Shown here: positions 17,022 through 44,416 of the stretch, one piece after another
How the letters are laid out: every line of letters starts with the position of its first letter
How positions within the stretch are numbered: position 1 is the stretch's first letter
Assembly: GCA_016841605.1 (NCBI GenBank)
Contig: JAENYV010000013.1
Span: 1-50,962, forward strand
Direction: 5' to 3'
Source: Dethiobacter alkaliphilus
GTDB taxonomy: Bacteria > Bacillota > Dethiobacteria > DTU022 > UBA8154
Length of the DNA stretch: 50,962 nt
The notes under the pieces: model-generated
Database searches by the model: none
Told to the model about the DNA's origin: nothing
Seen by the model: the letters and a program-made list of their open reading frames with translations, nothing else
Position numbers and translations under genes: made by a program

Positions 17022-17997
17022 TATTTCCGTGATTATCCCTACTCTGAATGCAGAAAAAACATTGGGAGCATTAATGGAAAGACTGAAAAAGCAGGAGCAG
17101 GCTATTGACGAAATAATAGTGGTTGATTCCGGCTCGGAAGACAATACTGTTGAGGTAGCTGAGAGGTATGGCGCTCATCTTTTACACATTAAAAGAGATT
17201 CTTTTGACCATGGGGGAACACGCAATTATGCTGCCGGTGAGGCCCGGGGCGATATCTTAGTTTTTATGACCCAGGATGTTCTTCCTGTTGATACAAAAAC
17301 AATCGGAAATTTGGTAAAACCTTTATTAAATATTTTACCGTCCGGACCGGCAGACGGATCAGGTGATATTATTGTTTCTTATGCCAGGCAGATCGCCTTT
17401 CCTCAGGCATCGTTATCCGAACAGTATCTGAGATTAGCCAACTATCCTGTGACTACACGTATTAAATCGAAGGAAGACATCCCTGAACTGGGGATCAAAG
17501 CTTTTCAGAGCAGCAATGCCTGTGCTGCTTATTATCGCAAGAAGTTTAACACCCTGGGATGTTTCCCTCAGCCTATAGTCTGCAATGAGGATATGATTTT
17601 TGCTGCCAGGGCAATTTGGGCCGGTTATCGGGTTTCTTATACCGCTGAATCGGTCGTCTGGCATACCCACCAGTATAATTTTAGACAACTTTTTCGCAGG
17701 TATTTTGATATCGCTGCCTCTCTGGACCATGAGCCCGCGATCAGGCAGATGGGTAATGCTGAATCCAAAGGATTGGATTTTTTGAAGGGGCAACTGGGCT
17801 TTTTGCAAGAGAAAAAGAAACTATACTTCCTGCCGTTGCTCGTCCTGGAAGCAGCGGGCAAATTCTTGGGTTTTAAAATTGGGGAACGGCACGGTCTTAT
17901 TCCCGGCAAATGGAAAAAATATCTGGGTATGAACACCCTTTACTGGGAGCGAAACAGCTGTTCAAAAAATATCATTAAGGGCGGTGAAACATTTTGA
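17005..17997 (+). CDS. Family 2 glycosyltransferase (rhamnosyltransferase-like)
   Basis: A 330-residue cytoplasmic GT-A enzyme. It has the GT2 opening [21 protein letters not shown], the nucleotide-binding [10 protein letters not shown], and a TQDVLP segment at the DxD position. [19 protein letters not shown] and the late His ([10 protein letters not shown]) resemble rhamnosyltransferases, so it may use the dTDP-rhamnose made by the neighbours. The substrate is inferred. The GTG at 17005 is preferred because AAGGGTGG lies about ten bases upstream; a TTG at 16996 would add three residues. The gene overlaps its neighbours at both ends, so it is co-transcribed. Confidence 0.82.
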
Positions 17998-19049
17998 AGA
18001 TCCTGGTTACCGGAGGGGCAGGTTTTATCGGCTCAAATTATCTGAATCTTTTTGTGACCCGTTATTCTCAGCATACGTTTATTAACCTGGATAAGCTTAC
18101 ATACGCGGCAAACCTCCTCAATCTGGAGAGGGTTTCCTCTTTGCCTAATTATCTTTTGGAAGAAGGGGATATTGCTGATTATGAACGGGTGGAAAATATC
18201 TTTCAAAGATATGATCCTGACCTGGTGGTCCACTTTGCCGCGGAGAGTCACGTGGACAGGAGCATCCTGGGTCCTGCCGAATTTATGCGTTCCAATATTA
18301 TGGGAACTTTTTGTTTGCTGGAAGCATGCCGCAAGTGCTGGACAAATAAAGAAAACAAACTGTTCCAGCTCGTCAGCACCGATGAGGTTTACGGTTCCCT
18401 GGGTGATAAAGGGTTTTTTACCGAGAAGACGGCCTACGACCCCAGCAGTCCCTATTCGGCCTCCAAGGCTGCCGCAGACCATTTGGCAAGAGCCTACTTC
18501 CGCACTTATGGACTGCCTGCCGTAATTACCAACTGTTCCAACAATTACGGTCCTTACCAGTTTCCCGAAAAACTTATTCCCCTTATGATTTTAAATGCAC
18601 TGGAGGGAAAAGCGTTGCCCGTCTATGGGAAGGGAGCCAATGTCCGGGATTGGCTTTATGTCGAGGACCACTGCGAAGCACTCTGGACGGTTGCCGAGCG
18701 GGGGAAACAGGGTGAGACCTACAATATCGGCGGAAATAATGAATGGAAAAATATTGATATTGTCCATAAAATTTGTGAAATTCTCGCGGTAGAAGTGGGT
18801 AAAGTCCCGCAAGATTTTGAAAAGTTGATAACCTTCGTTCAGGACCGTCCCGGTCACGATTTGCGCTATGCCATAGATGCAAGCAAAATAAAAAGGGAAC
18901 TTGGTTGGGAGCCCAAAGAAACATTTGAAAGCGGGTTGCGGAAAACCATTCTTTGGTATCTGGGAAATCAAAGATGGGTGGAAAGCGTCAAAAGCGGGGA
19001 ATACAAAAACTGGATGGATGCGAACTACGGTAAAAGACTTACAGGATAG
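17994..19049 (+). CDS. rfbB: dTDP-glucose 4,6-dehydratase
   Basis: A 351-residue extended short-chain dehydrogenase. It converts dTDP-glucose to dTDP-4-keto-6-deoxyglucose, the branch-point for all deoxysugars of this locus. The Rossmann motif [12 protein letters not shown] lies at the N-terminus. [12 protein letters not shown], the [10 protein letters not shown] segment, [10 protein letters not shown] (catalytic Tyr-x-x-x-Lys) and [18 protein letters not shown] are diagnostic of RfbB/RmlB. Length is normal for the family. It starts at a TTG at 17994 that overlaps the stop of the upstream glycosyltransferase, with AAGGGCGGTG as ribosome-binding site. The partner rfbA follows after an inserted hicAB pair. 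Confidence 0.95.
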
Positions 19050-19619: not shown

Positions 19620-20483
19620 ATGAAAGGAATAATCCTTGCCGGGGGAGCCGGCACCAGATTGTACCCTTCCACTATCGTCACAAGCAAACAGCTTTTGCCT
19701 ATTTACGATAAGCCAATGATCTATTATCCTTTATCCACGCTCATGTTTGCCGGGATCAGGGACGTGCTCATCATCTCAACCCCTGAGGATACTCCCAAAT
19801 ACGAGGCGATCCTGGGAGACGGCAAACGGCTGGGGATGAGCTTTTCTTACAAAGTACAGGAGAAGCCTGAAGGAATCGCTCAGGCCTTCATTATCGCAGA
19901 CGATTTTATCGGGATAGACAATTCCTGTCTCATTCTCGGCGACAATGTTTTTTACGGACACGGACTCCCCGAGATTATTAAGCGGGCCGGGAGCCTTACC
20001 GACGGAGCTGTAGTCTTCGGTTATCCGGTACATGATCCGCAGCGCTACGGGGTGGTGGACTTTGATGCAAGCGGCAGGGTCCTTAGCATTGAAGAAAAAC
20101 CTCAAAATCCCAAATCCGACTATGCTGTGCCCGGACTTTACTTCTACGATAACGAAGTTGTGGAAATAGCAAAAAATCTTAAGCCTTCCGCCCGCGGTGA
20201 ACTGGAAATTACGGCAGTCAATACCGTTTATTTCCAAAAAGGGAAGTTAAAAGTGGAACTTTTAGGCCGGGGAATAGCCTGGCTAGATACGGGAACCCCG
20301 GACAGTCTCCTGGAGGCGGCCAGTTTCGTGGCTACTATTGAACGCAGACAGGGATTAAAGATCGCCTGTATTGAAGAAATTGCCTTCAGAATGGGTTACA
20401 TAAATAAAAAAGAACTGCAGGAATTAATCACCGTTTTGCCGAAAAGTATCTATCGGGATTATTTGGAGAAGCTTTTTGGTTAA
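19620..20483 (+). CDS. rfbA: Glucose-1-phosphate thymidylyltransferase
   Basis: A 287-residue nucleotidyltransferase that makes dTDP-glucose from glucose-1-phosphate and dTTP, the first step of the dTDP-sugar pathways here. The N-terminal [16 protein letters not shown] loop with the catalytic Arg, [38 protein letters not shown] and [14 protein letters not shown] are diagnostic of RfbA/RmlA. Full family length. The ATG at 19620 follows AAAGGAG by 12 bases, slightly far. It feeds rfbB upstream and rfbC/rfbD downstream. Confidence 0.95.
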
Positions 20484-23597: not shown

Positions 23598-24035
23598 ATG
23601 GCCTTAAGTGATTGTGTAATGATAGAGTTGCCTAAAATAAGTGACCCTAGAGGAAATTTAAGCTTTGTTGAATCTTTTAATCATATTCCTTTTGAAATCA
23701 AGCGAGTGTACTATTTATATGATGTTCCTGGAGGCGAATGCAGGGGTGGTCATGCCCATAAAGAATTACAACAACTTATTATAGCTATGAATGGTAGTTT
23801 TGATGTTTTTTTAGATGATGGATTAATAAAGAAAAGTTTTACATTAAATAGAAGTTACAAGGGTCTTTATGTAAGCAAAATGGTCTGGAGAGAGTTAAAA
23901 AATTTTACTTCTGGTGCTGTTTGTGTGGTGCTTGCATCAGAACCTTATTCAGAAGAGGACTATTACCGAAATTATGAAGAGTTTATAGTAAATGTAAAAA
24001 AACTTTATTTATCTGACACGTTTTTCCAAGTTTAG
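23598..24035 (+). CDS. fdtA: dTDP-4-keto-6-deoxyglucose 3,4-ketoisomerase (FdtA/QdtA family)
   Basis: A 145-residue cupin of the sugar 3,4-ketoisomerase family. It moves the keto group of dTDP-4-keto-6-deoxyglucose from C4 to C3, opening the route to 3-amino-3,6-dideoxy sugars. KISDPRGNLSFVESF, RVYYLYDVPGGECRGGHAHK (with the paired catalytic His residues) and VLASEPYSEEDYYRNYEEF are diagnostic. Whether the product leads to a galacto (Fuc3N) or gluco (Qui3N) sugar cannot be read from the sequence by eye. The partner aminotransferase is probably the DegT protein at 32150, and the acyltransferase the hexapeptide protein at 28328. A clear GGAGG precedes the ATG. Confidence 0.88.
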   Translation: MALSDCVMIELPKISDPRGNLSFVESFNHIPFEIKRVYYLYDVPGGECRGGHAHKELQQLIIAMNGSFDVFLDDGLIKKSFTLNRSYKGLYVSKMVWRELKNFTSGAVCVVLASEPYSEEDYYRNYEEFIVNVKKLYLSDTFFQV

Positions 24036-24142: not shown

Positions 24143-25099
24143 ATGCATAATAGTGGTTGTATAAATGACGATACAAGCGTTCTCATTTCAGTAGTTATAC
24201 CGGTTTATAAATCTGAAAAGTTTTTGAAAGATCTATATCATCGTTTAGTAACCCAAATTGAATCATTTACCAGTGATTTTGAAATAATCATGATTGAAGA
24301 CTGTGGAGGAGATAAATCATGGCAGATTATAAATGAATTATCTCAGAAAGATAAAAGAGTAAAGGGTATTCAGTTTAGTAGAAATTTTGGCCAGCACTAT
24401 GGTATTACTGCTGGATTGGATTATTGCAGCGGTGAATGGGTTGTTGTAATGGACAGTGACTTGCAGGACAGGCCTGAAGAAATTCCTCATCTTTATGCGA
24501 AAGCACTTGAAGGTTACGATATAGTACTAGCCTGTCGGGGAAAAAGAAGAGATCCTCTGGTTCAAAAAATTATGTCTTGGTTTTTTTATAAAGTATTTAA
24601 TTACCTAACTGAAATGAACTATAATCCGCAAGTAGGGAATTTTAGAATTATATCTAAAAAAGTTGTAATGCATTTTAGGCAAATGCGCGAAAGATTAAGA
24701 TTTTTTGGCGGGTTGATTGATTGGATGGGTTTTCCCGTAGCCTACATCGATGTTCAGCATGATTCACGTGCCAAAGGGAAAAGCAGTTATACCTTTAAAA
24801 AAAAGTTTAAAATAGCTTATGAGGCGATTATTTCATACTCAGATAAACCTTTAAAAATGTCCATTCAGTTTGGTTTTATCATGTCCCTTCTCGCTTTTTT
24901 GTATGGCATTTACATAGTAATAAGGGCTATAATCTTTGGATCAGCTATTGCAGGTTGGAGTAGTTTAATGGTTTCAATTTATTTTGTGGGCGGGATTATT
25001 ATTGCTACATTAGGTGTTATCGGTATCTATTTAGGAAAAACATTTGATGAGGTAAAAAAAAGGCCGTTATACATTACTAAAGAAACAATTAATTTTTAA
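24143..25099 (+). CDS. Membrane-anchored family 2 glycosyltransferase (GtrB/ArnC/DPM1 type)
   Basis: A 318-residue enzyme with a cytoplasmic GT-A domain (ISVVIPVYKSEKFLKDLY, FSRNFGQHYGITAGLDYCSG, VVMDSDLQDRPEEIP with the DxD-like motif) and two C-terminal membrane helices (about 243-300). Such enzymes make undecaprenyl-phosphate-linked monosaccharides that are flipped and used outside the membrane. Downstream are a polytopic membrane protein and a small four-helix EamA-type protein, an arrangement like Gtr or Arn side-branch systems. The sugar is unknown. The start codon choice is plain ATG, with GGGGG upstream. Confidence 0.86.
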   Translation: MHNSGCINDDTSVLISVVIPVYKSEKFLKDLYHRLVTQIESFTSDFEIIMIEDCGGDKSWQIINELSQKDKRVKGIQFSRNFGQHYGITAGLDYCSGEWVVVMDSDLQDRPEEIPHLYAKALEGYDIVLACRGKRRDPLVQKIMSWFFYKVFNYLTEMNYNPQVGNFRIISKKVVMHFRQMRERLRFFGGLIDWMGFPVAYIDVQHDSRAKGKSSYTFKKKFKIAYEAIISYSDKPLKMSIQFGFIMSLLAFLYGIYIVIRAIIFGSAIAGWSSLMVSIYFVGGIIIATLGVIGIYLGKTFDEVKKRPLYITKETINF

Positions 25100-25117: not shown

Positions 25118-26599
25118 ATGAAACAGATAATAAAAATGGTTTGCTATTCTATATTAAGATTTTTTCTTCACCCATATTACATCTCTTTTATTGTCGCTTT
25201 TTTTATTATGGCTAACTATATTTTACCTCATCCAGATCTTATTCGAGTAAGCAGTGATGCACAAAGTATTTGGCAAACTATAATTACATTTCATAACGAG
25301 ACAATAACTTCTTCTTATGTTCTGTATAAAGGTTTTTTATCAGTTTATCCTTATGTGTGGTTATATGATTTATCTATGCTGATGGGTTTGGATATGTTTT
25401 TTTTCATAAAGATTTATCACTGTTTACTTTTTGCATATGCCGCCGGGATAGGAATGCCTTATATAATATCCAAACTTTTATCAATTCAATTAAAATCATA
25501 TAGAAATATTTTTTTTGTAATTATATTATTTTTTTTGTTTGAGTTTACGGGAGTATTTAAAGCATTAATGGTTGATTTGCCGAGTTGGGCTTTTTTCGTT
25601 ATGGCAGTTAGTTCTGTTTTAAAAATAGAAGAATTGATTTTCAATACCCCAAAATGGTTTTTTCTATTTTCAGGGCTGGTTGTTGGTTTGTGTTTATGTA
25701 TGAGCGGACAGTTTTTTCTGGCTGCATTTTTGCTTATTCTCTTTATCGTTATACTTCTATTAAGCAATATAAGGGAATCCAAGAAAAAAGGAGCCGCTCT
25801 ACTAATGCTTTTTATGCTGTTTGTTGGTGTTGCTATTCCCAAAGCATATGATATATATTTTGAAAAAAATATAGTACAACCTATGCGTGAAAGAGGCGAC
25901 TGGCTGCCAACCGGCAGTGAGTGGCTTATGAATGGGATGACGAGGTTTTTGCCGCATTATAAATCTTTTTCTTTCCCTTCAATTCCTAGCAACCGAGGAG
26001 AAGCTATTATTAAACAACAAGAAGGAGAAAATTTTACGGAGAAATACGAGTTTATTAAAGCAGGAGTAGACTCTTATACAGTTCAAGAATATTTTCAGCT
26101 CATTAAAAGGAACCCTTTTGATTTTATAATGATCTGGGGTACAAAAATGTTTCTGGCTATTAGTTTTGATAATGGTACAGCGAGGTTCTCACATTTATTT
26201 GTATCATACTCATCATTATTTCTATGCTTTTTTTTAATCTACCGTCGGTTTAAAACATTAAGGGATGTTTTTAAACTAAAAAGTCTTATTCCTCTTTCGT
26301 TTATTGTTTCTATTGCAGCGCCAGTATTTTTACAAATAGAAATGAGATATGCTATCTCTCTTCAAGGTTTTATTATTGGTTTGGCATTGTTAGATGATTT
26401 TATTTGGCTCCAAATTAAAAAAAATATTGAAATTATTAAACAATCTTTTAAAACCAATCAGTTTGGATTTTTTAACATAACTGTGATACCATATACATTA
26501 ATTTTTTATCTTATTTTTATTATTTTTTGCTTTTTATTATATGGTTCTTTGCTTGAGATATCAGGATCGGAGCCGGATAGTATTTTATTCAGGTTTTAG
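25118..26599 (+). CDS. Polytopic membrane protein, possible GT-C glycosyltransferase
   Basis: A 493-residue membrane protein with about ten hydrophobic helices. I do not recognise the exact family. The first external loop carries acidic residues (HPDLIRVSSDAQSIW), as in GT-C enzymes that use polyprenyl-phosphate sugars. A larger hydrophilic loop lies at about 245-340. It sits 18 bp behind a GtrB/ArnC-type gene and before a small EamA-type flippase-like gene. A role as the serotype-specific transferase of a three-part Gtr-like system is therefore likely but inferred from context. The DNA is very A+T-rich. Confidence 0.6.
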   Translation: MKQIIKMVCYSILRFFLHPYYISFIVAFFIMANYILPHPDLIRVSSDAQSIWQTIITFHNETITSSYVLYKGFLSVYPYVWLYDLSMLMGLDMFFFIKIYHCLLFAYAAGIGMPYIISKLLSIQLKSYRNIFFVIILFFLFEFTGVFKALMVDLPSWAFFVMAVSSVLKIEELIFNTPKWFFLFSGLVVGLCLCMSGQFFLAAFLLILFIVILLLSNIRESKKKGAALLMLFMLFVGVAIPKAYDIYFEKNIVQPMRERGDWLPTGSEWLMNGMTRFLPHYKSFSFPSIPSNRGEAIIKQQEGENFTEKYEFIKAGVDSYTVQEYFQLIKRNPFDFIMIWGTKMFLAISFDNGTARFSHLFVSYSSLFLCFFLIYRRFKTLRDVFKLKSLIPLSFIVSIAAPVFLQIEMRYAISLQGFIIGLALLDDFIWLQIKKNIEIIKQSFKTNQFGFFNITVIPYTLIFYLIFIIFCFLLYGSLLEISGSEPDSILFRF

Positions 26600-26682
26600 T
26601 TTAATAATTGTAGCATATTCTGATAAACCTAAGCGACATGAACGAATAATCAAAAATATTTAAATTATTGGAGGAAGATGAT

Positions 26683-27045
26683 TTGGCCTATCTTTATATT
26701 TTAGGAACAATTCTGTTAACTGTTTTTGCCCAACTAATTTTAAAGTATCGGATAATGCGACATGGTGTGCTTCCAGAACCTCTTTATGATAAGTTCATTT
26801 TTTTACTAAAATTATTTTTAGATCCCTTTATTTTACTCGGATTTTTTTCAGCCTTTATTGCTGCACTTTGTTGGATGGCTGCTCTATCAAAGTTTGACCT
26901 TACCCACGCTTATCCGTTTATGGGCTGTACGTTTATACTTGTTTTAGTTTTAAGTGGGATTCTATTCAATGAAGCAATTACTCTATTTAAATGTATTGGT
27001 GTTCTTTTGGTTGTATTAGGAGTAATCGTAGCAAGTCAGGGATGA
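26683..27045 (+). CDS. Small EamA/ArnE-like four-helix membrane protein
   Basis: A 120-residue protein with four hydrophobic helices. Phrases such as FAQLILKYRI, AALCWMAALSKFDLTHAYPF and ILFNEAITLFKCIGVLLVVLGV fit the small EamA/SMR-like family that includes ArnE/ArnF. These move undecaprenyl-phosphate-linked sugars to the outer face of the membrane. The TTG at 26683 is chosen because GGAGGAAG lies eight bases upstream; the ATG at 26678 is out of frame. It likely supplies the flippase for the sugar lipid made by the gene at 24143. Confidence 0.75.
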   Translation: MAYLYILGTILLTVFAQLILKYRIMRHGVLPEPLYDKFIFLLKLFLDPFILLGFFSAFIAALCWMAALSKFDLTHAYPFMGCTFILVLVLSGILFNEAITLFKCIGVLLVVLGVIVASQG

Positions 27046-27105: not shown

Positions 27106-28260
27106 ATGCAAATACCATTTAATAATCCTTATTTTGTTGGGAAAGAGCTTGAATTTATTAAAGAAGCGATCAATAACAACCACATTTCCGGAGATGGTAT
27201 TTTTACTAAACGCTGCCAGAAATGGCTTGAGGAGCAAACAGGTTGCCGCAAAGCTTTGCTTACCCATTCATGCACAGCTGCCTTAGAAATGGCTGCAATT
27301 CTGTCGAACATCCAACCTGGCGACGAGATCATTATGCCCTCTTATACGTTTGTTTCCACTGCCAATGCTTTTGTATTACGTGGGGGAGTACCAGTTTTTG
27401 TAGATGTTAGACCCGATACCATGAATATTGATGAAACACAAATTGTAAATGCTATTACAGCAAAAACTAGGGCTATTGTTCCAGTCCATTATGCGGGAGT
27501 AGCTTGCGAAATGGAAACAATTCTTGCAATAGCTGAAAAATATAACTTACTGGTGATTGAAGACGCGGCTCAAAGTATAATGTGCAGCTATAAGGGAAAG
27601 CCTTTAGGAAGTATAGGTCATATTGGGACAATAAGTTTTCACGAAACTAAAAATATAACATCAGGGGAAGGTGGAGCTCTCCTTATTAATGATACGCGCT
27701 TTATTGAACGCGCCGAAATTATTAGAGAAAAAGGAACTAACCGAAGCCAATATTTTAGGGGAGAAGTGGACAAATATTCCTGGGTGGACATCGGTTCATC
27801 TTATCTGCCGAGCGATATCACTGCCGCATTTTTGTATGCTCAGATGGAAGTAGCAGCTAAAATAACCGCAAAGAGATTGCAGATATGGGAACAATACTAT
27901 GATAGTTTAATGCAGATAGCAGCTGAAGGTTTAATCGATTTGCCGTTTATCCCAGAGGGTTGTATCCATAATGCCCACATGTTTTATCTAAAAATTCGAA
28001 ACTTACAGGAAAGGACATCACTCATTAACTACTTAAAGAAAAATGGAATACATAGTGTGTTCCACTATATCCCTCTACATAGTTCAGAGGCAGGTATAAA
28101 ATTTAGTAGATTTAGCGGAAAGGATAGGTATACGACAAAAGAAAGCGATAGAGTGTTAAGGTTACCATTATTTTATAAAATGGACAGTATCTCTGTTGAT
28201 TTAATTGTTAACGTTATTAAACGTTTTTTAAATAGTAAGAGACAATTTAATACAAAGTAA
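27106..28260 (+). CDS. rffA: dTDP-4-amino-4,6-dideoxygalactose transaminase (RffA/WecE)
   Basis: A 384-residue PLP-dependent aminotransferase of the DegT/DnrJ/EryC1 group. It opens with IPFNNPYFVGKELEFI and contains KALLTHSCTAALEMAAIL, EDAAQSI and HETKNITSGEGGALLIN, where the Lys should bind PLP. These match the RffA/WecE branch, which aminates C4 of dTDP-4-keto-6-deoxyglucose to give dTDP-Fuc4N. A matching RffC-like acetyltransferase is encoded at 43697. Length is normal for the branch. It should compete with FdtA and RfbC for the same keto-sugar. Confidence 0.88.
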   Translation: MQIPFNNPYFVGKELEFIKEAINNNHISGDGIFTKRCQKWLEEQTGCRKALLTHSCTAALEMAAILSNIQPGDEIIMPSYTFVSTANAFVLRGGVPVFVDVRPDTMNIDETQIVNAITAKTRAIVPVHYAGVACEMETILAIAEKYNLLVIEDAAQSIMCSYKGKPLGSIGHIGTISFHETKNITSGEGGALLINDTRFIERAEIIREKGTNRSQYFRGEVDKYSWVDIGSSYLPSDITAAFLYAQMEVAAKITAKRLQIWEQYYDSLMQIAAEGLIDLPFIPEGCIHNAHMFYLKIRNLQERTSLINYLKKNGIHSVFHYIPLHSSEAGIKFSRFSGKDRYTTKESDRVLRLPLFYKMDSISVDLIVNVIKRFLNSKRQFNTK

Positions 28261-28327
28261 AGCGGCGAGAATACTGATGTATGTTCAAGCAACATTAAGC
28301 TTAACTGATAGAAAGAAGGTGAATATA

Positions 28328-29038
28328 TTGAGCCAAAACATTGCAAAGACAGCAGTAATTTATATACAAAATATAGGAGATTCGGTCTCTATCAAAGATT
28401 TTGCTATTATTTATGCTAATACTACCCTTAAACGGAATATCATCATTGGCGAACATGCAGTTATAGGAAAGCTGCCTAGCAGGAATGCTTTAATGAAAAA
28501 AAAGATAGAGGAAAAGGGGCAAACCATTTTAAAAGATAACGTGGTAATAGGCAGCAATGTTGTAATTTATAACAATGTTTTAATTGGTGAAAATTCGTTA
28601 ATTGGTGACAATACTTCCGTTTTTTTTAACGTGACTATCGGTGATAATGTTCTGATAAGCCGAAATGTCACTATTAATTCTAATACAAGCATTGGCAATT
28701 ATACCAGAATTATGGATAATACACATATCACAGGTAGGGCAGTGATTGGAGATCATGTTTTTATCAGTGTAGGCGTTATGTCAGCTAACGATAACAGTTT
28801 TGGTAAATATGGCTATGGGAATCATATACAGGGTCCCGTCATTGAGGATTACGTATCAATAGGTGCAGGTGCAGTACTTTTGCCTGGAGTAACCTTAAAA
28901 AGAGGATGTATGGTTGCCGCTGGAAGTGTTGTAAAAAATGATGTTCCTGAAGATATTATTGTTGCCGGAAATCCGGCAACATTCGTCAGAAAAATACCGA
29001 AGGCAATAAGACGATATTCCACAAGCAATAGTGATTAG
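28328..29038 (+). CDS. Left-handed beta-helix (hexapeptide) acyltransferase
   Basis: A 236-residue protein made largely of hexapeptide repeats (for example VIYNNVLIGENSLIGDNTSV and VTINSNTSIGNYTRI), which fold into a trimeric beta-helix acyltransferase. The later stretch YVSIGAGAVLLPGVTLKRGC followed by AGNPATFVRKIP is typical of sugar N-acetyltransferases. It lies between an amino-sugar transaminase and a dedicated acyl-ACP cassette, so it may attach either acetyl or 3-hydroxybutyryl to a dTDP-amino sugar. The acyl donor cannot be told from the sequence. The TTG at 28328 with AAGGTG upstream is preferred over an ATG at 28277. Confidence 0.78.
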   Translation: MSQNIAKTAVIYIQNIGDSVSIKDFAIIYANTTLKRNIIIGEHAVIGKLPSRNALMKKKIEEKGQTILKDNVVIGSNVVIYNNVLIGENSLIGDNTSVFFNVTIGDNVLISRNVTINSNTSIGNYTRIMDNTHITGRAVIGDHVFISVGVMSANDNSFGKYGYGNHIQGPVIEDYVSIGAGAVLLPGVTLKRGCMVAAGSVVKNDVPEDIIVAGNPATFVRKIPKAIRRYSTSNSD

Positions 29039-29074: not shown

Positions 29075-30100
29075 ATGAATAATAAAGCATGTATTAAAGG
29101 GATCGCAAGTTATTTGCCAGATTACCAGTTAACCAATGAAGAGTTGAGCGAAAAATATCCAGAATGGAATGTAGAAAAAATATATAAAAAGACAGGAATA
29201 TCCAGTAGATCTATAGTTGCGCCAGGCGAATGCGTTTCTGATATGGCCGTTGCAGCTGCACAAAAGCTTTTTAATAAGAAAGTTTGTGTTAAAGAAGAAA
29301 TTGAGTGTCTTATTTTGTGCACTCAAAGTCCCGATTATTTTCTTCCATCTACCGCATGTATTATTCAAGATCGATTGGAGCTGCCAAAAGGAATTGCAGC
29401 ATTTGATTATAACTTGGGCTGTTCGGGATATATTTATGGTTTAGCAATAGCAAAAAGTTTAATCGAAACAGGGATTTTTAATAACATAATTTTAATTACT
29501 GCAGAGACCTATACGAAATATTTAAACCCAACAGATAAAAGCGTTCGAACCATTTTTGGAGATGGAGCTGCAGCAACATTTTTGTGTGCGAAGAAATGTG
29601 AAGAGGAAATGATTGGACCTTTTATTTTTGGAACAGACGGAAGCGGTGCTGAAAAGCTTATTGTTCCTGCTGGTGGTCATCGCAGGCCTATCGATTCATC
29701 TACAGCTATTGAATTAGTTTGCGATGACGGTATCAAACGCTCCCCAGAGAATCTGTATATGGATGGAGCCGAAATCTTTAATTTCACGTTGGACAGGGTT
29801 CCCCAAATGATAAAAGATCTTTTAAATAAAAGTGAAACAAAATTTGATGATGTAGGCTATTTTATTTTTCATCAGGCAAACAGGTTTATGCTCGAAACAC
29901 TTAGAAAAAAGATCAAGATACCTAAAGACAAATTTTGTATTAATAATGAGTATTTTGCGAACACTGTCTCAGCAACAATACCTATGGCTCTCGAAATTGA
30001 ATTTAATGACGGGAAAATCAAAAATAATGATCTAGTAATGTTGGCTGGATTCGGTGTCGGATTGTCATGGGGGGCTACTCTTATTAAAGTACTTTTCTGA
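29075..30100 (+). CDS. 3-oxoacyl-ACP synthase III (FabH-like)
   Basis: A 341-residue thiolase-fold condensing enzyme. The catalytic triad is visible: Cys in FDYNLGCSGYIYGL, His in YFIFHQANRFM and Asn in NTVSATIPMALE. The KASIII class joins an acyl-CoA, often acetyl-CoA, to malonyl-ACP to give a beta-ketoacyl-ACP. Its stop overlaps the beginning of the ACP gene region, and an SDR reductase and a malonyl transferase follow. It is thus part of a small acyl-building cassette inside the glycan locus and unlikely to serve housekeeping fatty-acid synthesis, because no dehydratase, enoyl reductase or elongation synthase is present. Confidence 0.88.
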   Translation: MNNKACIKGIASYLPDYQLTNEELSEKYPEWNVEKIYKKTGISSRSIVAPGECVSDMAVAAAQKLFNKKVCVKEEIECLILCTQSPDYFLPSTACIIQDRLELPKGIAAFDYNLGCSGYIYGLAIAKSLIETGIFNNIILITAETYTKYLNPTDKSVRTIFGDGAAATFLCAKKCEEEMIGPFIFGTDGSGAEKLIVPAGGHRRPIDSSTAIELVCDDGIKRSPENLYMDGAEIFNFTLDRVPQMIKDLLNKSETKFDDVGYFIFHQANRFMLETLRKKIKIPKDKFCINNEYFANTVSATIPMALEIEFNDGKIKNNDLVMLAGFGVGLSWGATLIKVLF

Positions 30101-30114
30101 TGAGGAGGAAAAAA

Positions 30115-30342
30115 ATGAATGAAGCATTTTTAGAAGAAATGGCCGAAATACTGGAAGAAGATATTGGGAACATAACACCGGATTACTCACTATCCAAAGA
30201 AAACTTTGATTCACTAGCTATTGTGGCTACATTAGCGTTAATAGACGATATATTTGAAGTTACAGTTAGTGGGAAAGAGCTTCGTAAGGTTAAGGATATT
30301 GGGTCAATTCTAAGGTTAGTTGAAAAAGCAATGGGAAAGTGA
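30115..30342 (+). CDS. Acyl carrier protein
   Basis: A 75-residue acidic four-helix carrier. The phosphopantetheine-binding Ser is in KENFDSLAIVATLALIDDIF, matching the DSL motif. The ATG at 30115 is used because GAGGAGG lies seven bases upstream and overlaps the end of the FabH-like gene. It is followed six bases later by the SDR gene. It probably carries malonyl and beta-keto/hydroxyacyl groups for the neighbouring enzymes only. A pantetheinyl transferase must be supplied from elsewhere. Confidence 0.9.
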   Translation: MNEAFLEEMAEILEEDIGNITPDYSLSKENFDSLAIVATLALIDDIFEVTVSGKELRKVKDIGSILRLVEKAMGK

Positions 30343-30348
30343 TTCTTT

Positions 30349-31113
30349 ATGAAAGAATTTATCGGACTGGAAAATCAAAGAATTATGGTAACGGGTGCAT
30401 CGTCAGGTATTGGAAAAGAAACTTCGATTTTACTTAGCGAGCTTGGTGCCAATCTTATTCTAGTCGCCAGAAATAGAGAGCAATTAGAATTTGTTAAAGA
30501 AAAACTTTCAAAAGGAGATCATAGTATTTATGTTTTTGACTTAGACCAAACGGAACAGATACCGACGTTTTTGAAGAATGTAAGTAAAGAAGTTGAACCA
30601 CTATCCGGTATTTTTCATGCGGCCGGTATTGACTGTATGATGCCCATCTCAATGGTGAAAGAAAAACACATAGAACGTACCTTCCGGGTAAGTGTTTACG
30701 CTGCTATGATGCTGGCTCGAGGGTTATGCAGTAAAGGTGTACGCAAAAATGGTAGCACTAGTTTTGTTGTTATGTCATCAGTTTCTGCATTAATGGGTGC
30801 AAAAGCTTTATCTGTTTATGCGGCAAGCAAATCAGCGGTTGATGGGATGGTTCGTAGCTTGGCAATTGAGTTTGCAGATAAACAAATTCGCGTAAATTCA
30901 ATTGTTGCCGGTCTTGTCAATACAGCAATGTTACGTGAAAAGAAGGTTTCCCTAACAGAAGAATCCTTTACTAACTTAATAAAACAACATCCCCTTGGCA
31001 TTGGAGAACCTCGGGATATTGCAATGGCAGCTGCCTTTTTATTGTCGGATGCTTCCAAATGGATTACTGGTACAACGCTGGTTGTTGATGGGGGCTTTTC
31101 CACTGGCAAATAA
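30349..31113 (+). CDS. SDR-family reductase, probable 3-oxoacyl-ACP reductase
   Basis: A 254-residue classical short-chain dehydrogenase. The cofactor loop is VTGASSGIGKETSIL. The catalytic residues are visible as Ser in VVMSSVSALMG and Tyr-x-x-x-Lys in YAASKSAVDGMVRSLAIEF, and the end WITGTTLVVDGGF is typical of the FabG-like group. Between ACP and FabD, the likely reaction is reduction of acetoacetyl-ACP to 3-hydroxybutyryl-ACP. Other SDR substrates, including sugars, cannot be excluded from the sequence alone. Confidence 0.85.
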   Translation: MKEFIGLENQRIMVTGASSGIGKETSILLSELGANLILVARNREQLEFVKEKLSKGDHSIYVFDLDQTEQIPTFLKNVSKEVEPLSGIFHAAGIDCMMPISMVKEKHIERTFRVSVYAAMMLARGLCSKGVRKNGSTSFVVMSSVSALMGAKALSVYAASKSAVDGMVRSLAIEFADKQIRVNSIVAGLVNTAMLREKKVSLTEESFTNLIKQHPLGIGEPRDIAMAAAFLLSDASKWITGTTLVVDGGFSTGK

Positions 31114-31142
31114 CGAATTGACGATTAAAACTGGAGGCCGGA

Positions 31143-32093
31143 ATGAAAAAAACCGCTTTTTTGTTTCCCGGACAGGGTGCTCAATATGTTGGTATGGGTG
31201 CAGATTTTTTTCACGCTCATAAAGAAGCCAAAGGAGTGTTTCAAGCTGCAAACGAAATTTTAAATCAAGATATTACTAAGCTTTGCTTGGAAGGTCCTGA
31301 AGGAGGATTGATAAAAACCGTCAACGCTCAACCGGCGATCGTAACAACTTCTATCGCAATCCTTAGAGTAATTGAAAAGGAATTGGGCCGACCTGATTTT
31401 GTTGCAGGTCTTAGTTTAGGTGAATACTCCGCCTTAGTTTGTGCTGAAAGCTTGCATTTTTCTGATGCAGTGAGAGTTGTACGTGCAAGAGGGCATTATA
31501 TGCAGGAGGCAGTGCCTTTGGGAAAGGGCAAGATGGCAGCTATAATAGGGTTAAATCGAGTAGCCGTTGAACAAATAGTGAATTATTTGAAAGGTGATGG
31601 TGTAATTGAAATTGCAAATTATAATACATCGGAACAGATTGTAGTATCAGGGGAAGCACAATTAGTTAAAAATGCGGTTAAAGAGGCCAAACAAGCAGGA
31701 GCTAGAAAAGCAGTACTACTGCCGGTCAGCGCACCCTTTCATTGCGGCCTGCAATTACAGGCCGCAAATAAGCTTGAAAAAAAATTAACAGAGATTACTA
31801 TTAAACCAATAAAAATTCCACTTATAAATAATGTAGATGCGCAAATCATTGATGATGCAGCTGATATCATTTCTTCCCTTGTTAGACAAGTAAGTAACTC
31901 CGTATTGTGGCAGCATTCAGTTGAGAAGATGATTACTCTCGGTGTTCAAAACTTTATCGAAATAGGGCCAGGCGAAACTCTTAGTAATTTTGTTAAAACA
32001 ATTGCACAAGAACGAGGTGTCTCTGTGAATTGTCTTTCTATTGAGTCAATTGAGGGATTTAATAAGGCAAAAGAATGCTTGTCATCAGTTTAA
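31143..32093 (+). CDS. Malonyl-CoA:ACP transacylase (FabD-like)
   Basis: A 316-residue acyltransferase that loads malonyl groups from malonyl-CoA onto ACP. FLFPGQGAQYVGMG opens the protein. The nucleophile is the Ser in GLSLGEYSALVCAE, an Arg follows in RARGHYMQEAVP, and the catalytic His is in VSAPFHC. Full length for FabD. It completes the FabH-ACP-SDR-FabD set and has a GGAGG upstream. A perfect 10-bp inverted repeat lies within the gene at 31742-31767. Confidence 0.9.
   Translation: MKKTAFLFPGQGAQYVGMGADFFHAHKEAKGVFQAANEILNQDITKLCLEGPEGGLIKTVNAQPAIVTTSIAILRVIEKELGRPDFVAGLSLGEYSALVCAESLHFSDAVRVVRARGHYMQEAVPLGKGKMAAIIGLNRVAVEQIVNYLKGDGVIEIANYNTSEQIVVSGEAQLVKNAVKEAKQAGARKAVLLPVSAPFHCGLQLQAANKLEKKLTEITIKPIKIPLINNVDAQIIDDAADIISSLVRQVSNSVLWQHSVEKMITLGVQNFIEIGPGETLSNFVKTIAQERGVSVNCLSIESIEGFNKAKECLSSV
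31742..31767. repeat. 10-bp perfect inverted repeat inside the fabD-like gene
   Basis: TTGCGGCCTG (31742-31751) and CAGGCCGCAA (31758-31767) flank a six-base loop. It is conspicuously G+C-rich in an A+T-rich gene and lies just after the codons of the catalytic His. No T-run follows, so it is not a standard terminator. Confidence 0.55.
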
Positions 32094-32149: not shown

Positions 32150-33250
32150 ATGATTCCTTTTTTAGACTTAGAGCGTATACACAGAACATTATCAGAAGAG
32201 CTTATGGAGTCAATCAGTCAAGTTATTAATTCTAATCGCTTTATTCTTGGTGAAGAAGTAGAAAAATATGAATTAGAATTTGCTGCTTATTGTAATGCGG
32301 ATTATTGTGTTTCAGTTGGAAATGGCTTGGATGCTCTTCATTTAATTTTAAGAGCTTACGGTATAGGGATGGGTGATGAAGTAATCATTCCATCTAATAC
32401 ATTTATAGCAACTGCTCTTGCAGTGAGTTATGCCGGTGCACAACCGGTTTTGGTGGAACCATGTAAGCATACTTACAACATAGATACAAAATTAGTTGAG
32501 GCTAAAATTAGCAAAAAAACACGGGCAATTATTCCGGTTCATCTCTATGGGCAGCCTGCTGATATGGATCCATTATTACAATTAGCTTCAATATATAATT
32601 TAAAAGTTATTGAAGATGCTGCACAGGCGCATGGAGCTTTGTATAAAGGGAAAAAAACCGGTAGCTTAGGCGATGCTGCTGCGTTCAGCTTTTATCCAGG
32701 TAAAAACTTAGGGGCATTGGGTGATGGAGGGGCTGTAGTATCAAATGATACTAACTTGATAAAGAAGGTTAGATTGCTCAGGAACTATGGTTCTACTTGT
32801 AAATATTACCATTCAATGAAGGGTTTTAATTCTAGAATGGATGAATTACAAGCTGCAATTCTTAGAGTTAAATTAAAGTATTTGGATGGTTGGAATCAAG
32901 AGAGGAAAAAAATTGCCCAAAAGTATAAGGAAGAATTATCCTGTGAGGAGATAGTGACACCTTTCACCAATAAGAACACAGAACCAGTTTGGCATCTTTT
33001 TGTTGTTCGTCATCCCAAAAGAGATCACCTGCAAAAATATTTACGAGACAACGGAGTTGAAACCCTGATTCATTATCCAATACCTATCCATAAACAGAAT
33101 GCTTATAAAGAATTATTATCTTTAGATGAAAATTATTTATTAACCCAACAACTTTCCGATTCGATTTTATCGTTACCGATCTATCCCGGTTTAAAAGATG
33201 AGGAAGTCGAAAAAATAATAAATCTTATTAATTCGTACATGATCTGTTAA
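32150..33250 (+). CDS. fdtB: DegT/DnrJ/EryC1 aminotransferase, probable 3-amino sugar transaminase (FdtB/QdtB-like)
   Basis: A 366-residue PLP enzyme. It begins with [14 protein letters not shown] and has [40 protein letters not shown] and [18 protein letters not shown], where the Lys in PGKNLGA should bind PLP. These features fit transaminases that act on dTDP-3-keto-6-deoxyhexoses (FdtB/QdtB/TylB group). With FdtA at 23598 this gives a dTDP-3-amino-3,6-dideoxyhexose. It is clearly distinct from the RffA-type enzyme at 27106. The galacto or gluco configuration is not determinable here. Confidence 0.82.
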
Positions 33251-33364
33251 GATGAGACCGTCTCCGCTAATCAATGGAACAGTTACTGCCGAAATACTTT
33301 GGAGCAGCATTTTTATATATTGTTTGTGGTATAAGCTCTAGTTGAAGAAGTGGGAGGTTTGGTC

Positions 33365-34165
33365 TTGAAGCAAGAACAACATTATTCAGAACTTGTATTA
33401 ATAACTGGCCCCCCCAGAAGTGGAACTACTTGGCTTAATCGGGAAATTTGTAAAGGGACATCTGTTTTTCCGTTTCTGCCGGAATGCACATTTCTAACGA
33501 AACAGGTTGAAATATACAGCAATATCATTAACTACAGCGACGAAAAAAGATTTACTGCTTATTTCGGGAACAAAGAAAACTTAGTGGCTTTTTTTTCAGA
33601 AACTATTTATAGACAGATAAATATTGCTGCAAGCATAAATAAACTTTCAGATGCGAAAATATTGGTACTTAAAGATCCTGCTTTTTCCTTATATTTGGAC
33701 GAAATTAGTTTATTATTTCCACCTCATCGTTTAGTTGTGATAGTGCGAGATCCACTAGACGTAATCGCATCAATGAAAAATGTGAATAAAAAAAAGAAAA
33801 CTTGTTTCAATATAAATAATGTTGCTGAGGAAATATTTATTTATTACTTTAAAATTTCTCGTTTTCTTGATAAAAATAACGTTAATAACAGTTTCTTTGT
33901 TCGTTATGAAGATTTGGTGGCTACAGGGGAGATGAATGCTTTAAAGTCATTTTTGCCTGAAGGAATGATTGAATGCGCATCAAAAAAAAATGATATGTCG
34001 TCGTTCCAAAATATGCTAGACGTCTCCGATCCGTTTTTTAGTGAACTTTATTTGAGACCAACAACTCAAGAAAAAATTGGATCATATTTAGATATTTTGT
34101 CTGAGGATGAAATAAATCTTATACAGACTATATTTTCTGGTGTAATTCAACAATGGAAGTATTAA
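33365..34165 (+). CDS. PAPS-dependent sulfotransferase
   Basis: A 266-residue cytoplasmic sulfotransferase. The 5'-phosphosulfate loop is ITGPPRSGTTWLNREI and the 3'-phosphate-binding region is LVVIVRDPLDVIASMKNVN. The C-terminal residues include NSFFVRYEDLVATGE, typical of the family. It would transfer sulfate from PAPS to a hydroxyl or amino group of the growing glycan. PAPS synthesis genes are encoded at 39231-43623. The TTG at 33365 is chosen because GGGAGGT lies six bases upstream. A run of seven C bases falls inside the P-loop codons. The acceptor sugar is unknown. Confidence 0.84.
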   Translation: MKQEQHYSELVLITGPPRSGTTWLNREICKGTSVFPFLPECTFLTKQVEIYSNIINYSDEKRFTAYFGNKENLVAFFSETIYRQINIAASINKLSDAKILVLKDPAFSLYLDEISLLFPPHRLVVIVRDPLDVIASMKNVNKKKKTCFNINNVAEEIFIYYFKISRFLDKNNVNNSFFVRYEDLVATGEMNALKSFLPEGMIECASKKNDMSSFQNMLDVSDPFFSELYLRPTTQEKIGSYLDILSEDEINLIQTIFSGVIQQWKY

Positions 34166-39230: not shown

Positions 39231-40112
39231 ATGGAACATCTTGAAAAGCTGGAAAACAGGAGCATTCACATTTTGAGGGAGGCATACAGCGAATTTACGA
39301 GTCTTTGTATGCTCTGGTCCATCGGAAAAGACAGTACGGTGCTGTTATGGCTTACCAGGAAAGCTTTTTTTGGGCATGTTCCTATTCCCCTGGTGCATAT
39401 CGATACCAGTTATAAGATACCGGAAATGATTGAATACAGGGATAAACTCGCTTTTAAGTGGCACTTAGACATGATTTACGGGATCAATACCAAAGCCCTG
39501 GAAGAGAAGGAAACTTTCCCTGATGGCAACTGTACCAGGCTTGGGTGCTGTAAAAAACTGAAAACCGAGGCCCTGGTCAACACTCTGAGCGGTAACTGGC
39601 CGCGTTTCCGGATGAACCACGATACCTGCAGGTACGAGCTCGATAAAAATTCCGAACCTTATACTGGTGTGATTGTGGGTGTCCGTTCCGACGAAGAAGG
39701 GAGCCGTTCAAAGGAGAGATATTTTTCACCCAGGGGTAGGACGAGTAATTGGGCTTTTGCCGATCAGCCACCGGAATTTTGGAATCAGTATAAAACAGAC
39801 TTTGCACCCGGCACCCATGTGCGTATTCATCCCTTGTTGGACTGGACTGAACTAGATATTTGGGAGTACATCAAGCAGGAGGGCATTCCTGTGGTCTCTC
39901 TCTATTTTAACCAGGGTGACGGCAAACGCTACCGTTCTCTGGGGTGCGGCCCCTGTACCAAGCCTGTTGAATCAGAGGCTGGGAACCTGAAAGAAATTAT
40001 TGAGGAACTAAAAACAGGTAAGTTTGCCAAAATAGCGGAGCGCTCCGGACGAGATCAGGATAAAGAAGACGGTGGTGGGCTTGAAACCCTTAGGGTCGAC
40101 GGTTATATGTAA
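39231..40112 (+). CDS. cysD: Sulfate adenylyltransferase subunit 2
   Basis: A 293-residue PP-loop ATP pyrophosphatase. With CysN it makes adenosine 5'-phosphosulfate (APS) from ATP and sulfate. The PP-loop is [56 protein letters not shown] (in two parts) and [13 protein letters not shown] are diagnostic of CysD. It is normal length and directly precedes cysN. The DNA composition returns to a higher G+C content at this point, unlike the preceding A+T-rich genes, so the cys genes may have a separate origin. Confidence 0.95.
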
Positions 40113-40163
40113 TAAGATGTTTTTAAAAGAGTTGATAAAGACAGGTAATAAAGGAGAGACTTT

Positions 40164-42011: not shown

Positions 42012-43033
42012 ATTATGTTGCTTTTTTTGTTTCTATTGTTATTGCAGTTTTTCTAGCTTTTAATATGGGGGCAAGCGGTACTGCGCCATCTTTTTCCGCT
42101 CCATATGGAGCCAACCTTATTCGCAGGGAGCTTATTCCGGGCTTGTTTGGGACTTTCGTTTTTTTGGGAGCCGTTGTTGCAGGCGGGAAAGTGCTGAAAA
42201 CCATTGGTGGTGAGATTCTACCGTCGGAAAGCATGAGCCTTGTCTTGGTCTCCATTCTCCTTCTTGCATCGGCACTCTCTATTTTTTTTGCGAACCTGTT
42301 GAAGGTTCCCCAGTCGACGAGTCAGTCCACTATTTTTGCCCTGTCCGGTTGTGCATTTTATTTAAATAACCTAAAGACTCAAAAATTATTCTTAGAAATT
42401 ATTCCCATCTGGTTTGTTACACCTTTGATTAGCTTTTTATTAACATATTTGGCAGGGGCCTTCCTCTTAAGAATGCAGCGGGAAAAAGGTATCGTAGACT
42501 TTCAAGCTATTCGCCGCAAGGCCATTTGGAAATATATTACTATAGCTTGCTCATGCTATGTGGCCTTTTCCATTGGTTCCAACAATGTAGCGAACAGTGC
42601 AGGACCAATTGCTTCAATGCTTTTGAATGAACTTCACCTAGATTTAGTTGGAGGCGAAATGATTGCTGCACTGTTAAGTATTTTTTTGGTGGCTCCATGG
42701 TTTGGTATCGGCAGTTCCTTTCTAGGCAAAAATATCCTTGAGACTACTAGTATCGGTATTATTAAGATTGGACCTCTGGCGGCTACTTTTATTGCTTTTA
42801 TTACTGCGACGCTTCTCTTGCTTGCCTCAACTATGAGGGGTATTCCCACTTCCCTAGTTCAAATGAATGTCTTTGCAATTATTGCAGTGGGAATGCTTAA
42901 AGAAGGGCGAAAGGACATCTTGACCAGGGCAACCGTAAAAAAGCTTTTTATTACCTGGTTGGTTGCTCCGATCATAGCTTTTATCCTTGCTTATGTTCTG
43001 TTGCATACGGCGGTAATCGCAGGTTTAATGTAA
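42005..43033 (+). CDS. PiT-family permease, probable sulfate importer (CysP-like)
   Basis: A 342-residue membrane protein with about ten helices and the two-fold repeat of the PiT family. Repeat-type phrases are [20 protein letters not shown] near the start and [19 protein letters not shown] near residue 185; [15 protein letters not shown] lies between. PiT proteins carry phosphate, but CysP members carry sulfate. The seven-base overlap with cysN and the following cysC point to sulfate as the substrate. The context is strong, yet phosphate cannot be excluded from sequence alone. Confidence 0.85.
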
Positions 43034-43696: not shown

Positions 43697-44416
43697 ATGT
43701 TCGGTTTTGAAGTTGAGAGAATGGATTGGGATTCAAAATTTTGGGGTATAGTTGTATATAATGCAACAAAAGGCAAAGAACGAATATTCGATAATACATT
43801 TAATTTTAGCATGCCAAACTGCAACTCATTTATTATTCAAGCTTTAGTAGAAGATCCGGATATAGATTATATTAATTTTTTAGAGGATAATAATTTTAGA
43901 TTCGTTGAAACAAAAATTACTTTAAAAAAGGAAGTTAAGAGTAGGTCAGATGTAAGTAATGATTGCAAAAAGGTTGCATTCGATGATATAGAAATAAAAA
44001 AAAATGAGTTCTATAATTTGTTTGGAAAATTTAGTAGATACTCATTATTTGGGAGAAAAAGAGTTAATGAGTTTTATTATACCTGGGTTGTTAACAGTAT
44101 TAAGGGAGAAATGGATGATGAATGTATCGGATACTATGATGAAAATGAATTAGCTGGTTTTACGACTTTTAAAATACGGAGTAATGATCTGATTATTGGT
44201 TTAATAGGAGTTTTTTCTAAGCATCAAGGTAAAAGCATTAGTCAACGACTTTTGAACAGTATTAATAAAATAGCATTAGATAATAATTGTAAAACAATAT
44301 ACATTTCAACTCAAGGTAAGAATTTGAAAGCGATTAATGCTTATATCAAAAATGGCTTTTTTTTTGACAGCATAAGGCATTGGTATTATTTTAATAAGAG
44401 TAAGTATGGGACTTAA
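43697..44416 (+). CDS. rffC: GNAT acetyltransferase resembling dTDP-fucosamine acetyltransferase (RffC/WecD)
   Basis: A 239-residue protein. The opening VERMDWDSKFWGIVVY matches the L-x-WDS-x-FFG start of the RffC/WecD family. The central FGKFSRYSLFGRKRVNEFYY with TWVVNSIKG is also typical, and a GNAT acetyl-CoA site lies at about 178-200 (IGVFSKHQGKSISQRLL). RffC acetylates the 4-amino group of dTDP-Fuc4N, the product of the RffA-like enzyme at 27106. The two genes are 15 kb apart but in one locus. A GGGGTGAAATAA sequence precedes the ATG. It is the last gene of the glycan locus and is very A+T-rich. Confidence 0.75.
   Translation: MFGFEVERMDWDSKFWGIVVYNATKGKERIFDNTFNFSMPNCNSFIIQALVEDPDIDYINFLEDNNFRFVETKITLKKEVKSRSDVSNDCKKVAFDDIEIKKNEFYNLFGKFSRYSLFGRKRVNEFYYTWVVNSIKGEMDDECIGYYDENELAGFTTFKIRSNDLIIGLIGVFSKHQGKSISQRLLNSINKIALDNNCKTIYISTQGKNLKAINAYIKNGFFFDSIRHWYYFNKSKYGT

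Follow-up and report, generated by a model that had tools for sequence, protein, structure and literature searches.

What is the role of four genes resembling those of fatty-acid synthesis inside a locus for dTDP-sugars and glycan transport? The question is raised by a 50,962-nt stretch of DNA from Dethiobacter alkaliphilus (contig JAENYV010000013.1; the whole stretch is hereafter called the window), in which the four genes are embedded in a dTDP-sugar/ABC-transporter glycan locus. We consider it probable, with room left for doubt, that they form an abbreviated, dedicated type II fatty-acid synthase whose C4 3-hydroxyacyl product would be attached to a dTDP-3-amino-3,6-dideoxyhexose for a surface glycan.

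The Four-Gene Set

The set comprises the following genes.

29075..30100, + strand: member of the glycan-locus clade, FabH-like beta-ketoacyl-ACP synthase III (341 aa; C116-H266-N296 intact)
30100..30342, + strand: dedicated acyl carrier protein, ACP (80 aa; Ser38 within the DSL motif)
30349..31113, + strand: FabG-like SDR ketoreductase (254 aa; Y157-xxx-K161)
31143..32093, + strand: FabD-like malonyl-CoA:ACP transacylase (316 aa; clades with FabD of a congener's module, L023)

All four window ORFs are co-directional, with spacings of -1, 6, and 29 nt. The FabH protein matches the Pfam domains ACP_syn_III_C (97.5 bits) and ACP_syn_III (76.2 bits) and the NCBIfam model PRK09352 for beta-ketoacyl-ACP synthase 3 (286.5 bits, above the cut-off of 249); this match and the Cys-His-Asn triad identify it as a FabH-type beta-ketoacyl-ACP synthase III (KAS III). 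FabD matches Acyl_transf_1 (108 bits) and TIGR00128 (307 bits vs. a cut-off of 260.9), and it retains S91 as the serine of GxSLGE, R116 as the arginine for the malonyl carboxylate, and H200. The ACP match is weak (PP-binding, 23.5 bits vs. a cut-off of 20.8).

The SDR (adh_short_C2, 174 bits) has the family features of FabG, namely TGxxxGIG and S143-S144/Y157/K161. Because its score with the curated FabG equivalog model is below the cut-off (TIGR01830, 135 bits vs. 298) and the Asn of the Asn-Ser-Tyr-Lys tetrad is replaced by Ser, we call it FabG-like rather than FabG. The same substitution is found in the homologues from Burkholderia glumae and locus L119. The Pfam name of adh_short_C2 would suggest an enoyl reductase; this candidate was rejected, since the motif is YxxxK, not of FabI spacing, and points to a ketoreductase type. 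The first-pass annotation had described a minimal FabH-ACP-reductase-FabD set lacking a dehydratase and an enoyl reductase. The four ORFs with their family matches and intact catalytic residues bear this out, and neither missing activity was seen among the window ORFs scanned with Pfam. Neither promoters nor terminators were predicted more often than in shuffled sequences.

The Surrounding Glycan Locus

Genes for amino-sugar synthesis enclose the set, with gaps of at most 56 nt. The relevant features of the locus are as follows.

17994..19049, + strand: RmlB dTDP-glucose 4,6-dehydratase (TIGR01181, 485 bits)
19620..20483, + strand: RmlA glucose-1-phosphate thymidylyltransferase (TIGR01207, 473 bits)
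23598..24035, + strand: FdtA/QdtA-like dTDP-4-keto-6-deoxyglucose 3,4-ketoisomerase
24143..25099, + strand: GT2 of the PgfS/ArnC type, which probably puts the acylated sugar on polyprenyl phosphate
25118..26599, + strand: 493-aa protein with multiple membrane spans and without a family match, possible GT-C enzyme
26668..27045, + strand: small membrane protein of EamA type (125 aa), which may flip a lipid-linked sugar
27106..28260, + strand: WecE-like dTDP-Fuc4N transaminase, for a second amino sugar (TIGR02379, 644 bits)
28277..29038, + strand: QdtC/FdtC-type left-handed beta-helix N-acyltransferase, proposed to acylate a 3-amino sugar
32150..33250, + strand: QdtB/FdtB-like dTDP-3-keto-sugar 3-aminotransferase
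43697..44416, + strand: WecD/RffC-like GNAT, candidate dTDP-Fuc4N acyltransferase and rival candidate for hydroxybutyryl transfer

The first-pass annotation correctly placed a hexapeptide acyltransferase directly upstream of the set. The gene ends 36 nt before FabH and starts at 28277; the position 28328 given for it is internal. Ketoisomerases of known structure with differing product types match the FdtA-like protein at similar scores, so the sugar may be either Fuc3N or Qui3N.

We infer the substrates, the acyl group, the order of steps, and the pairing of acceptor and donor, including the use of acyl-ACP by the acyltransferase. FabD would load malonyl onto the dedicated ACP, and FabH would condense malonyl-ACP with acetyl-CoA to acetoacetyl-ACP, the 3-keto group of which the SDR would reduce. 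It is not certain that this reduction precedes acyl transfer: the Pseudomonas syringae pathway of Yamamoto et al. names dTDP-N-acetoacetylviosamine as a precursor, implying reduction on the sugar after transfer (PMC3927599). RmlA, RmlB, FdtA, and the QdtB-like aminotransferase would yield dTDP-Fuc3N or dTDP-Qui3N, whose 3-amino group would receive the acyl group from the QdtC-type enzyme. The resulting 3-hydroxybutyryl sugar would then probably pass to polyprenyl phosphate via the GT2, be flipped, and be joined to the glycan.

Separation from Housekeeping Fatty-Acid Synthesis

The only other FabH and FabD of the genome are encoded together on another contig (C8), behind plsX, and the window proteins share 35% (FabH) and 44% (FabD) identity with them. 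In a tree of 50 FabH sequences, housekeeping FabH proteins form a separate group (support 100/99) that excludes the window FabH. Given the plsX-fabH-fabD cluster elsewhere and this position in the tree, a housekeeping role of the four genes was rejected. A phage origin of FabH was rejected as well; phage matches are weak (about 30-33%), the records are few, and several of them seemingly contain bacterial DNA.

The window FabH belongs instead to a glycan-locus clade (98/88) together with PDB 3gwa and the vioA-linked KAS III from the flagellin locus of B. glumae. This clade spans six phyla, or seven if one distant member is counted. In 19 of 22 glycan-clade loci the KAS III gene adjoins an SDR gene, compared with 8 of 65 loci of other FabH proteins. 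The fetched stretch includes a DegT aminotransferase at 12 of these 22 loci and at none of the 65; ACP, sugar aminotransferase, and acyltransferase genes are frequent companions. Two loci (G098 and G403) have the order FdtA-GNAT-ACP-SDR-FabH-FdtB and therefore tie the set to a 3-amino sugar. Another one (L025) combines an LpxD-like acyltransferase and AcpS with SDR-FabH; the donor for the LpxD family is 3-hydroxyacyl-ACP. Some loci contain a second KAS III from a distinct paralogous clade, that of PDB 4efi, as observed in G051, G362, G376, a Bryobacterales MAG, a Bacteroidota MAG, and B. glumae.

Gene content, phylogeny, cross-phylum neighborhoods, and two published precedents whose acyl groups are known thus make the proposed dedicated supply of a C4 3-hydroxyacyl group for an amino sugar well supported.

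Acyltransferase and Acceptor Sugar

Which amino sugar is acylated depends on the assignment of the acyltransferase at 28277. Its closest solved relative is QdtC (PDB 3fs8; 89 bits), the nearest relatives in Bacillota lie next to FdtA and QdtB, and three relatives are fused to a QdtB-like aminotransferase, which places it in the QdtC/FdtC type. Assignment to the NeuD/PglB/VioB (VioB/PglD) type was rejected (TIGR03570, 94 bits vs. a cut-off of 160.8). The AlphaFold model is poor (pLDDT 66), and the fold-search hits have TM of about 0.3. Because the enzyme is of the QdtC/FdtC type, the acceptor is more probably the product of the FdtA-like and QdtB-like proteins, dTDP-Fuc3N or dTDP-Qui3N, than that of WecE. 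The first-pass proposal of a 3-hydroxybutyryl supply for an amino sugar is thus retained, with the acceptor specified as a 3-amino sugar rather than the WecE product. For dTDP-Fuc4N, the WecE product, the GNAT at 43697 would be a separate candidate acyltransferase.

Another scenario is that the set makes 3-hydroxybutyryl-ACP for dTDP-Fuc4N, acylated by this GNAT or by the hexapeptide enzyme, while the 3-amino sugar is only acetylated. We regard this as unlikely, although several observations agree with it. Only 16 nt separate the WecE gene from that of the hexapeptide enzyme, and the model for dTDP-Fuc4N acyltransferases hits the GNAT, if below the cut-off (109 bits vs. 219). The known 3-hydroxybutanoyl transferase FdhC (PMC4869667), annotated in Escherichia coli O103 as a GNAT, is of another family than the hexapeptide enzyme, and in VioA-type loci it is the 4-amino group that is acylated (PMC3927599). 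Locus L159, which encodes the closest relative of the hexapeptide enzyme (42% identity), has no KAS III, ACP, or SDR, so enzymes of this lineage can use a different donor, probably acetyl-CoA. Both the family of FdhC and this locus also count against the preferred reading. In L159, FdtA-acyltransferase-QdtB are adjoined by a relative of the GT2 at 24143. Relatives of the hexapeptide enzyme, however, pair with FdtA/QdtB rather than WecE. The GNAT gene, in turn, lies 11.6 kb downstream, past sulfate genes.

The starter specificity of FabH is not readable from its sequence, and 3-hydroxybutyryl is a deduced identity. The product could be another short acyl group: unreduced acetoacetyl, a branched or longer 3-hydroxyacyl from a different starter, or an iterated C6 dihydroxy acid. 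FabH enzymes vary in starter use, the window FabH has Leu where the E. coli enzyme has Phe87, and some loci contain two KAS III genes, the two-synthase system described for Flavobacterium psychrophilum making 3,5-dihydroxyhexanoyl (PMC6519341). Nevertheless, the window set has a single KAS III and a single SDR, KAS III enzymes normally perform one condensation, and the one-synthase viosamine island of P. syringae yields a C4 acid (PMC3927599), which makes this scenario quite improbable. It is highly improbable that the SDR acts on a sugar while KAS III, ACP, and FabD serve a non-glycan product such as a lipid or small secondary metabolite: SDRs are common in sugar pathways and a distant clade relative lies on a Deinococcus plasmid amid nonribosomal-peptide-like genes, but the SDR accompanies KAS III across phyla beside differing sugar genes, a vioR mutant loses the acylated sugar (PMC3927599), and the four genes are tightly enclosed by amino-sugar genes.

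Implications

The preferred reading, a C4 3-hydroxyacyl supply for the 3-amino sugar, describes a small dedicated fatty-acid-synthase-like set that is recognizable by one FabH clade and occurs in six or more phyla, Firmicute-type bacteria among them. The acyl group of an uncharacterized glycan would thereby become predictable from its genes. Copies of this clade can also be told apart from housekeeping FabH, although annotations can readily confuse the two. Tentatively, and with rather more doubt than confidence, we suggest a chain-length code. One KAS III of the window clade would give C4 3-hydroxybutyryl, and an added KAS III of the PDB 4efi clade would perform a further condensation to 3,5-dihydroxyhexanoyl; the window would represent the one-synthase C4 type, self-sufficient via its own FabD. 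Short hydroxyacyl decorations of amino sugars influence how bacterial surface glycans are recognized and how they act as antigens.

Comparison with Known Systems

The closest described precedent is the viosamine island of P. syringae (vioA, vioM, vioT, vioS, vioB, vioR, acp), in which vioS/vioR/acp/vioB lead to a Qui4N(3-hydroxybutyryl)2Me glycan; orfA-orfE of the P. aeruginosa PAK flagellin island is a related system (PMC3927599). In both of them, as described, and in the window, KAS III, 3-oxoacyl-ACP reductase, and ACP occur together with an aminotransferase and an acyltransferase, and the N-3-hydroxybutyryl group of P. syringae is the one proposed here. The viosamine island differs in having no FabD, a 4-amino sugar acceptor (dTDP-Qui4N), flagellin as the target, and a methyltransferase (PMC3927599).

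Similar gene company is observed next to flagellin on B. glumae pBGF3, in the order vioA-FabH-ACP-[second KAS III]-SDR-acyltransferase, with identities to the window proteins of 50% (FabH), 41% (SDR), and 39% (ACP). Here FabD is absent, the aminotransferase is VioA-type, and the second KAS III is split by a frameshift. The wfpC-wfpG genes for the O-polysaccharide R-group of F. psychrophilum also include ACP, ketoacyl-ACP synthase, and ketoacyl-ACP reductase, along with a PglD-type acyltransferase, and are proposed to equip an amino sugar with an N-hydroxyacyl group. Unlike the window, the set as described has two ketoacyl synthases for a C6 product and UDP-Qui2NAc4N as the acceptor, and its description mentions no FabD (PMC6519341).

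The same end product as proposed here is formed by the FdtA-FdtB-FdhC and QdtA-QdtB-QdhC pathways, leading to dTDP-Fuc3N(R3Hb) and dTDP-Qui3N(R3Hb) in E. coli O103, Hafnia, and Acinetobacter (PMC4869667). The window shares relatives of FdtA and FdtB/QdtB with them, whereas the E. coli O103 cluster has no dedicated FabH, ACP, SDR, or FabD. QdtC, the best solved relative of the 28277 enzyme by sequence and weakly so by fold, is described as a dTDP-Qui3N N-acetyltransferase, in contrast to the hydroxyacyl role proposed here. Most likely, the locus represents a hydroxyacyl-tag chemistry already known from a few Gram-negative bacteria, found here in a Firmicute-type organism and extended by a loading enzyme of its own, FabD.

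A second, dedicated acyl set

The first-pass annotation had described a FabH-ACP-reductase-FabD set lacking a dehydratase and an enoyl reductase. All four genes are in place on the forward strand, behind an acyltransferase gene, and neither missing enzyme was found among the window ORFs scanned.

28277-29038, hexapeptide acyltransferase, ending 36 nt upstream of FabH
29075-30100, + strand, FabH (beta-ketoacyl-ACP synthase III, KAS III), Pfam/NCBIfam match above the curated cut-off
30100-30342, + strand, ACP, Pfam/NCBIfam match barely above the cut-off
30349-31113, + strand, SDR, named by Pfam/NCBIfam
31143-32093, + strand, FabD, Pfam/NCBIfam match above the curated cut-off

The intergenic spacings are -1, 6, and 29 nt. 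When the proteins are aligned to their E. coli K-12 counterparts, the catalytic residues are C116, H266, and N296 in FabH, S38 in ACP, Y157 and K161 with a Ser pair at 143-144 in the SDR, and S91, R116, and H200 in FabD. The YxxxK motif assigns the SDR to the ketoreductase type. In this protein (30349-31113), Ser replaces the Asn of the FabG tetrad, as in the homologs from B. glumae and G362 (a genome of the same phylum but a distant family), and the FHAAGI motif is common to them.

The module is a second set, apart from the housekeeping genes. Elsewhere, the 4.07-Mb genome contains a single additional copy each of FabH and FabD, side by side behind plsX on contig C8, and two further ACP matches. 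The window FabH is 35% identical to its own housekeeping counterpart and 66% identical to the G362 protein; the window FabD pairs with the module FabD of the congener G051 (support 100/97), separately from housekeeping FabD. The module contains no AcpS, and two are encoded elsewhere in the genome. Related modules have dedicated AcpS-type phosphopantetheinyl transferases (9737-10123 in L119 of G362; 8579-8953 in locus L025).

Phylogeny and gene neighborhoods

The tree of 50 FabH proteins falls into three groups: housekeeping FabH (100/99), a clade around PDB 4efi (100/99), and a glycan-locus clade (98/88), to which the window FabH belongs together with PDB 3gwa and the pBGF3 protein of B. glumae. 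The latter clade spans Bacillota, Bacteroidota, Spirochaetota, Acidobacteriota, Planctomycetota, and Pseudomonadota (B. glumae), with one distant member from Deinococcota.

An SDR adjoins KAS III in 19 of 22 glycan-clade loci, against an SDR in 8 of 65 other FabH loci from the same scan, and a DegT-type sugar aminotransferase lies in the fetched stretch of 12/22 against 0/65; the loci differ in length, the search method differed slightly between the two sets, and these are not independent draws, so the p-values serve as a guide only. Gene orders include vioA-FabH-ACP-(split second KAS III)-SDR-acyltransferase beside flagellin on pBGF3, FabH-ACP-second KAS III-SDR-VioB-type acyltransferase-AcpS in G362, and FdtA-GNAT-ACP-SDR-FabH-FdtB in two further genomes (G098 and G403). 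The pBGF3 split is a frameshift (L105, 11275-12325), and the record has no annotation for this gene. In L025, SDR-FabH occurs together with AcpS and an LpxD-like acyltransferase; LpxD uses 3-hydroxyacyl-ACP, in keeping with a 3-hydroxyacyl donor bound to ACP. Few loci have FabD: it occurs only in the window, in G051, and as a short form in locus L035.

Acceptor sugar

The window locus has two amino-sugar branches. By predicted function, RmlA, RmlB, FdtA (23598), and a QdtB-like aminotransferase (32150; 483 bits to QdtB 3frk) produce a dTDP-3-amino-3,6-dideoxyhexose, and a predicted WecE-like enzyme (27106; TIGR02379, 644 bits) produces dTDP-Fuc4N. The proposal that the set supplies 3-hydroxybutyryl for an amino sugar is largely upheld by neighborhoods and published precedents, with the acceptor corrected to the 3-amino sugar in view of the QdtC-type acyltransferase. 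QdtC is the nearest solved protein to the acyltransferase at 28277, most of whose Bacillota relatives flank QdtB-like aminotransferases; the two enzyme types are naturally fused in three loci (L137, L138, and L141; ~630-645 aa). Because the QdtC-type enzyme keeps company with QdtB and FdtA, and the Fuc4N branch has a natural candidate of its own in a WecD/RffC-like GNAT (43697), we think that 3-hydroxybutyryl would go to the 3-amino sugar.

The main doubt comes from the closest relative of the acyltransferase, in genome G373, where the locus is RmlA-RmlB-FdtA-acyltransferase-GT2-GtrA-QdtB. This locus contains no KAS III, and therefore the acyltransferase lineage can use another donor. FdtA, GT2 (24143), a small EamA protein (26668), the acyltransferase, and QdtB are gene kinds common to the window and this type of locus; in the window, WecE and the FabH set are interposed among them. 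Judging from the PgfS/ArnC-type GT2 and the small membrane proteins, polyprenyl phosphate would carry the sugar, which would then be added as a side branch.

Other genes of the window

Probable sulfation of the glycan is indicated by a sulfotransferase that is accompanied by CysD, CysN (which includes part of an APS-kinase domain), the APS kinase CysC, and a transporter of PHO4 type (33350-34165 and 39231-43623). In a 1303-aa protein (34236-38147), a GT2 domain at the N terminus is combined with a GT61 domain at the C terminus. A 493-aa multi-span membrane protein (25118-26599), with no match in Pfam or NCBIfam, is perhaps a GT-C enzyme. The 2397-14215 region encodes a protein that combines RCC1 repeats with cohesin and dockerin domains, a cohesin protein, an O-antigen-ligase-like TPR protein, and an outer-membrane-efflux-type protein (9641-11023) that hints at an outer membrane. 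An SLH-domain surface protein and Flg_new_2 repeats 3' of the glycan locus (46005-50962) are possible carriers of the glycan.

Acyl chain length and comparison with known systems

The viosamine island of P. syringae pv. tabaci includes vioA, vioB, acp, vioS (KAS III), and vioR (3-oxoacyl-ACP reductase); the terminal sugar of its flagellin glycan is Qui4N bearing 3-hydroxybutyryl and 2-O-methyl groups, and a vioR mutant is without this sugar (PMC3927599). F. psychrophilum has an O-polysaccharide bearing 3,5-dihydroxyhexanoyl and a locus with two ketoacyl synthases, wfpC and wfpE, ACP wfpD, reductase wfpF, and PglD-type acyltransferase wfpG (PMC6519341). One synthase for a C4 acid and two for a C6 acid is the expectation from one condensation per synthase. 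The basis of this rule is these two published cases and the FabH tree, where second synthases from six loci form their own clade. With its one synthase, the window module should therefore yield a C4 acid, and the acyl group is predicted to be 3-hydroxybutyryl. A window-type KAS III is accompanied by a second one of the PDB 4efi clade in L023 (G051), L119, L122, L029, L105, and L038, and the latter may mark a two-condensation, C6 version; the exception to the separate clade is Flavobacterium locus L037, with both synthases in one clade.

Flagellin and O-antigen loci of Gram-negative bacteria have already yielded systems of this kind. New in the window variant are its own FabD, the 3-amino-sugar setting with a QdtC-type acyltransferase, the Firmicute-type host, and the presence of sulfotransferase and sulfate-activation genes in the glycan locus. 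The P. syringae authors name dTDP-N-acetoacetylviosamine as a precursor (PMC3927599), and therefore the reductase in that system may act after transfer; the same order is possible for the window SDR.
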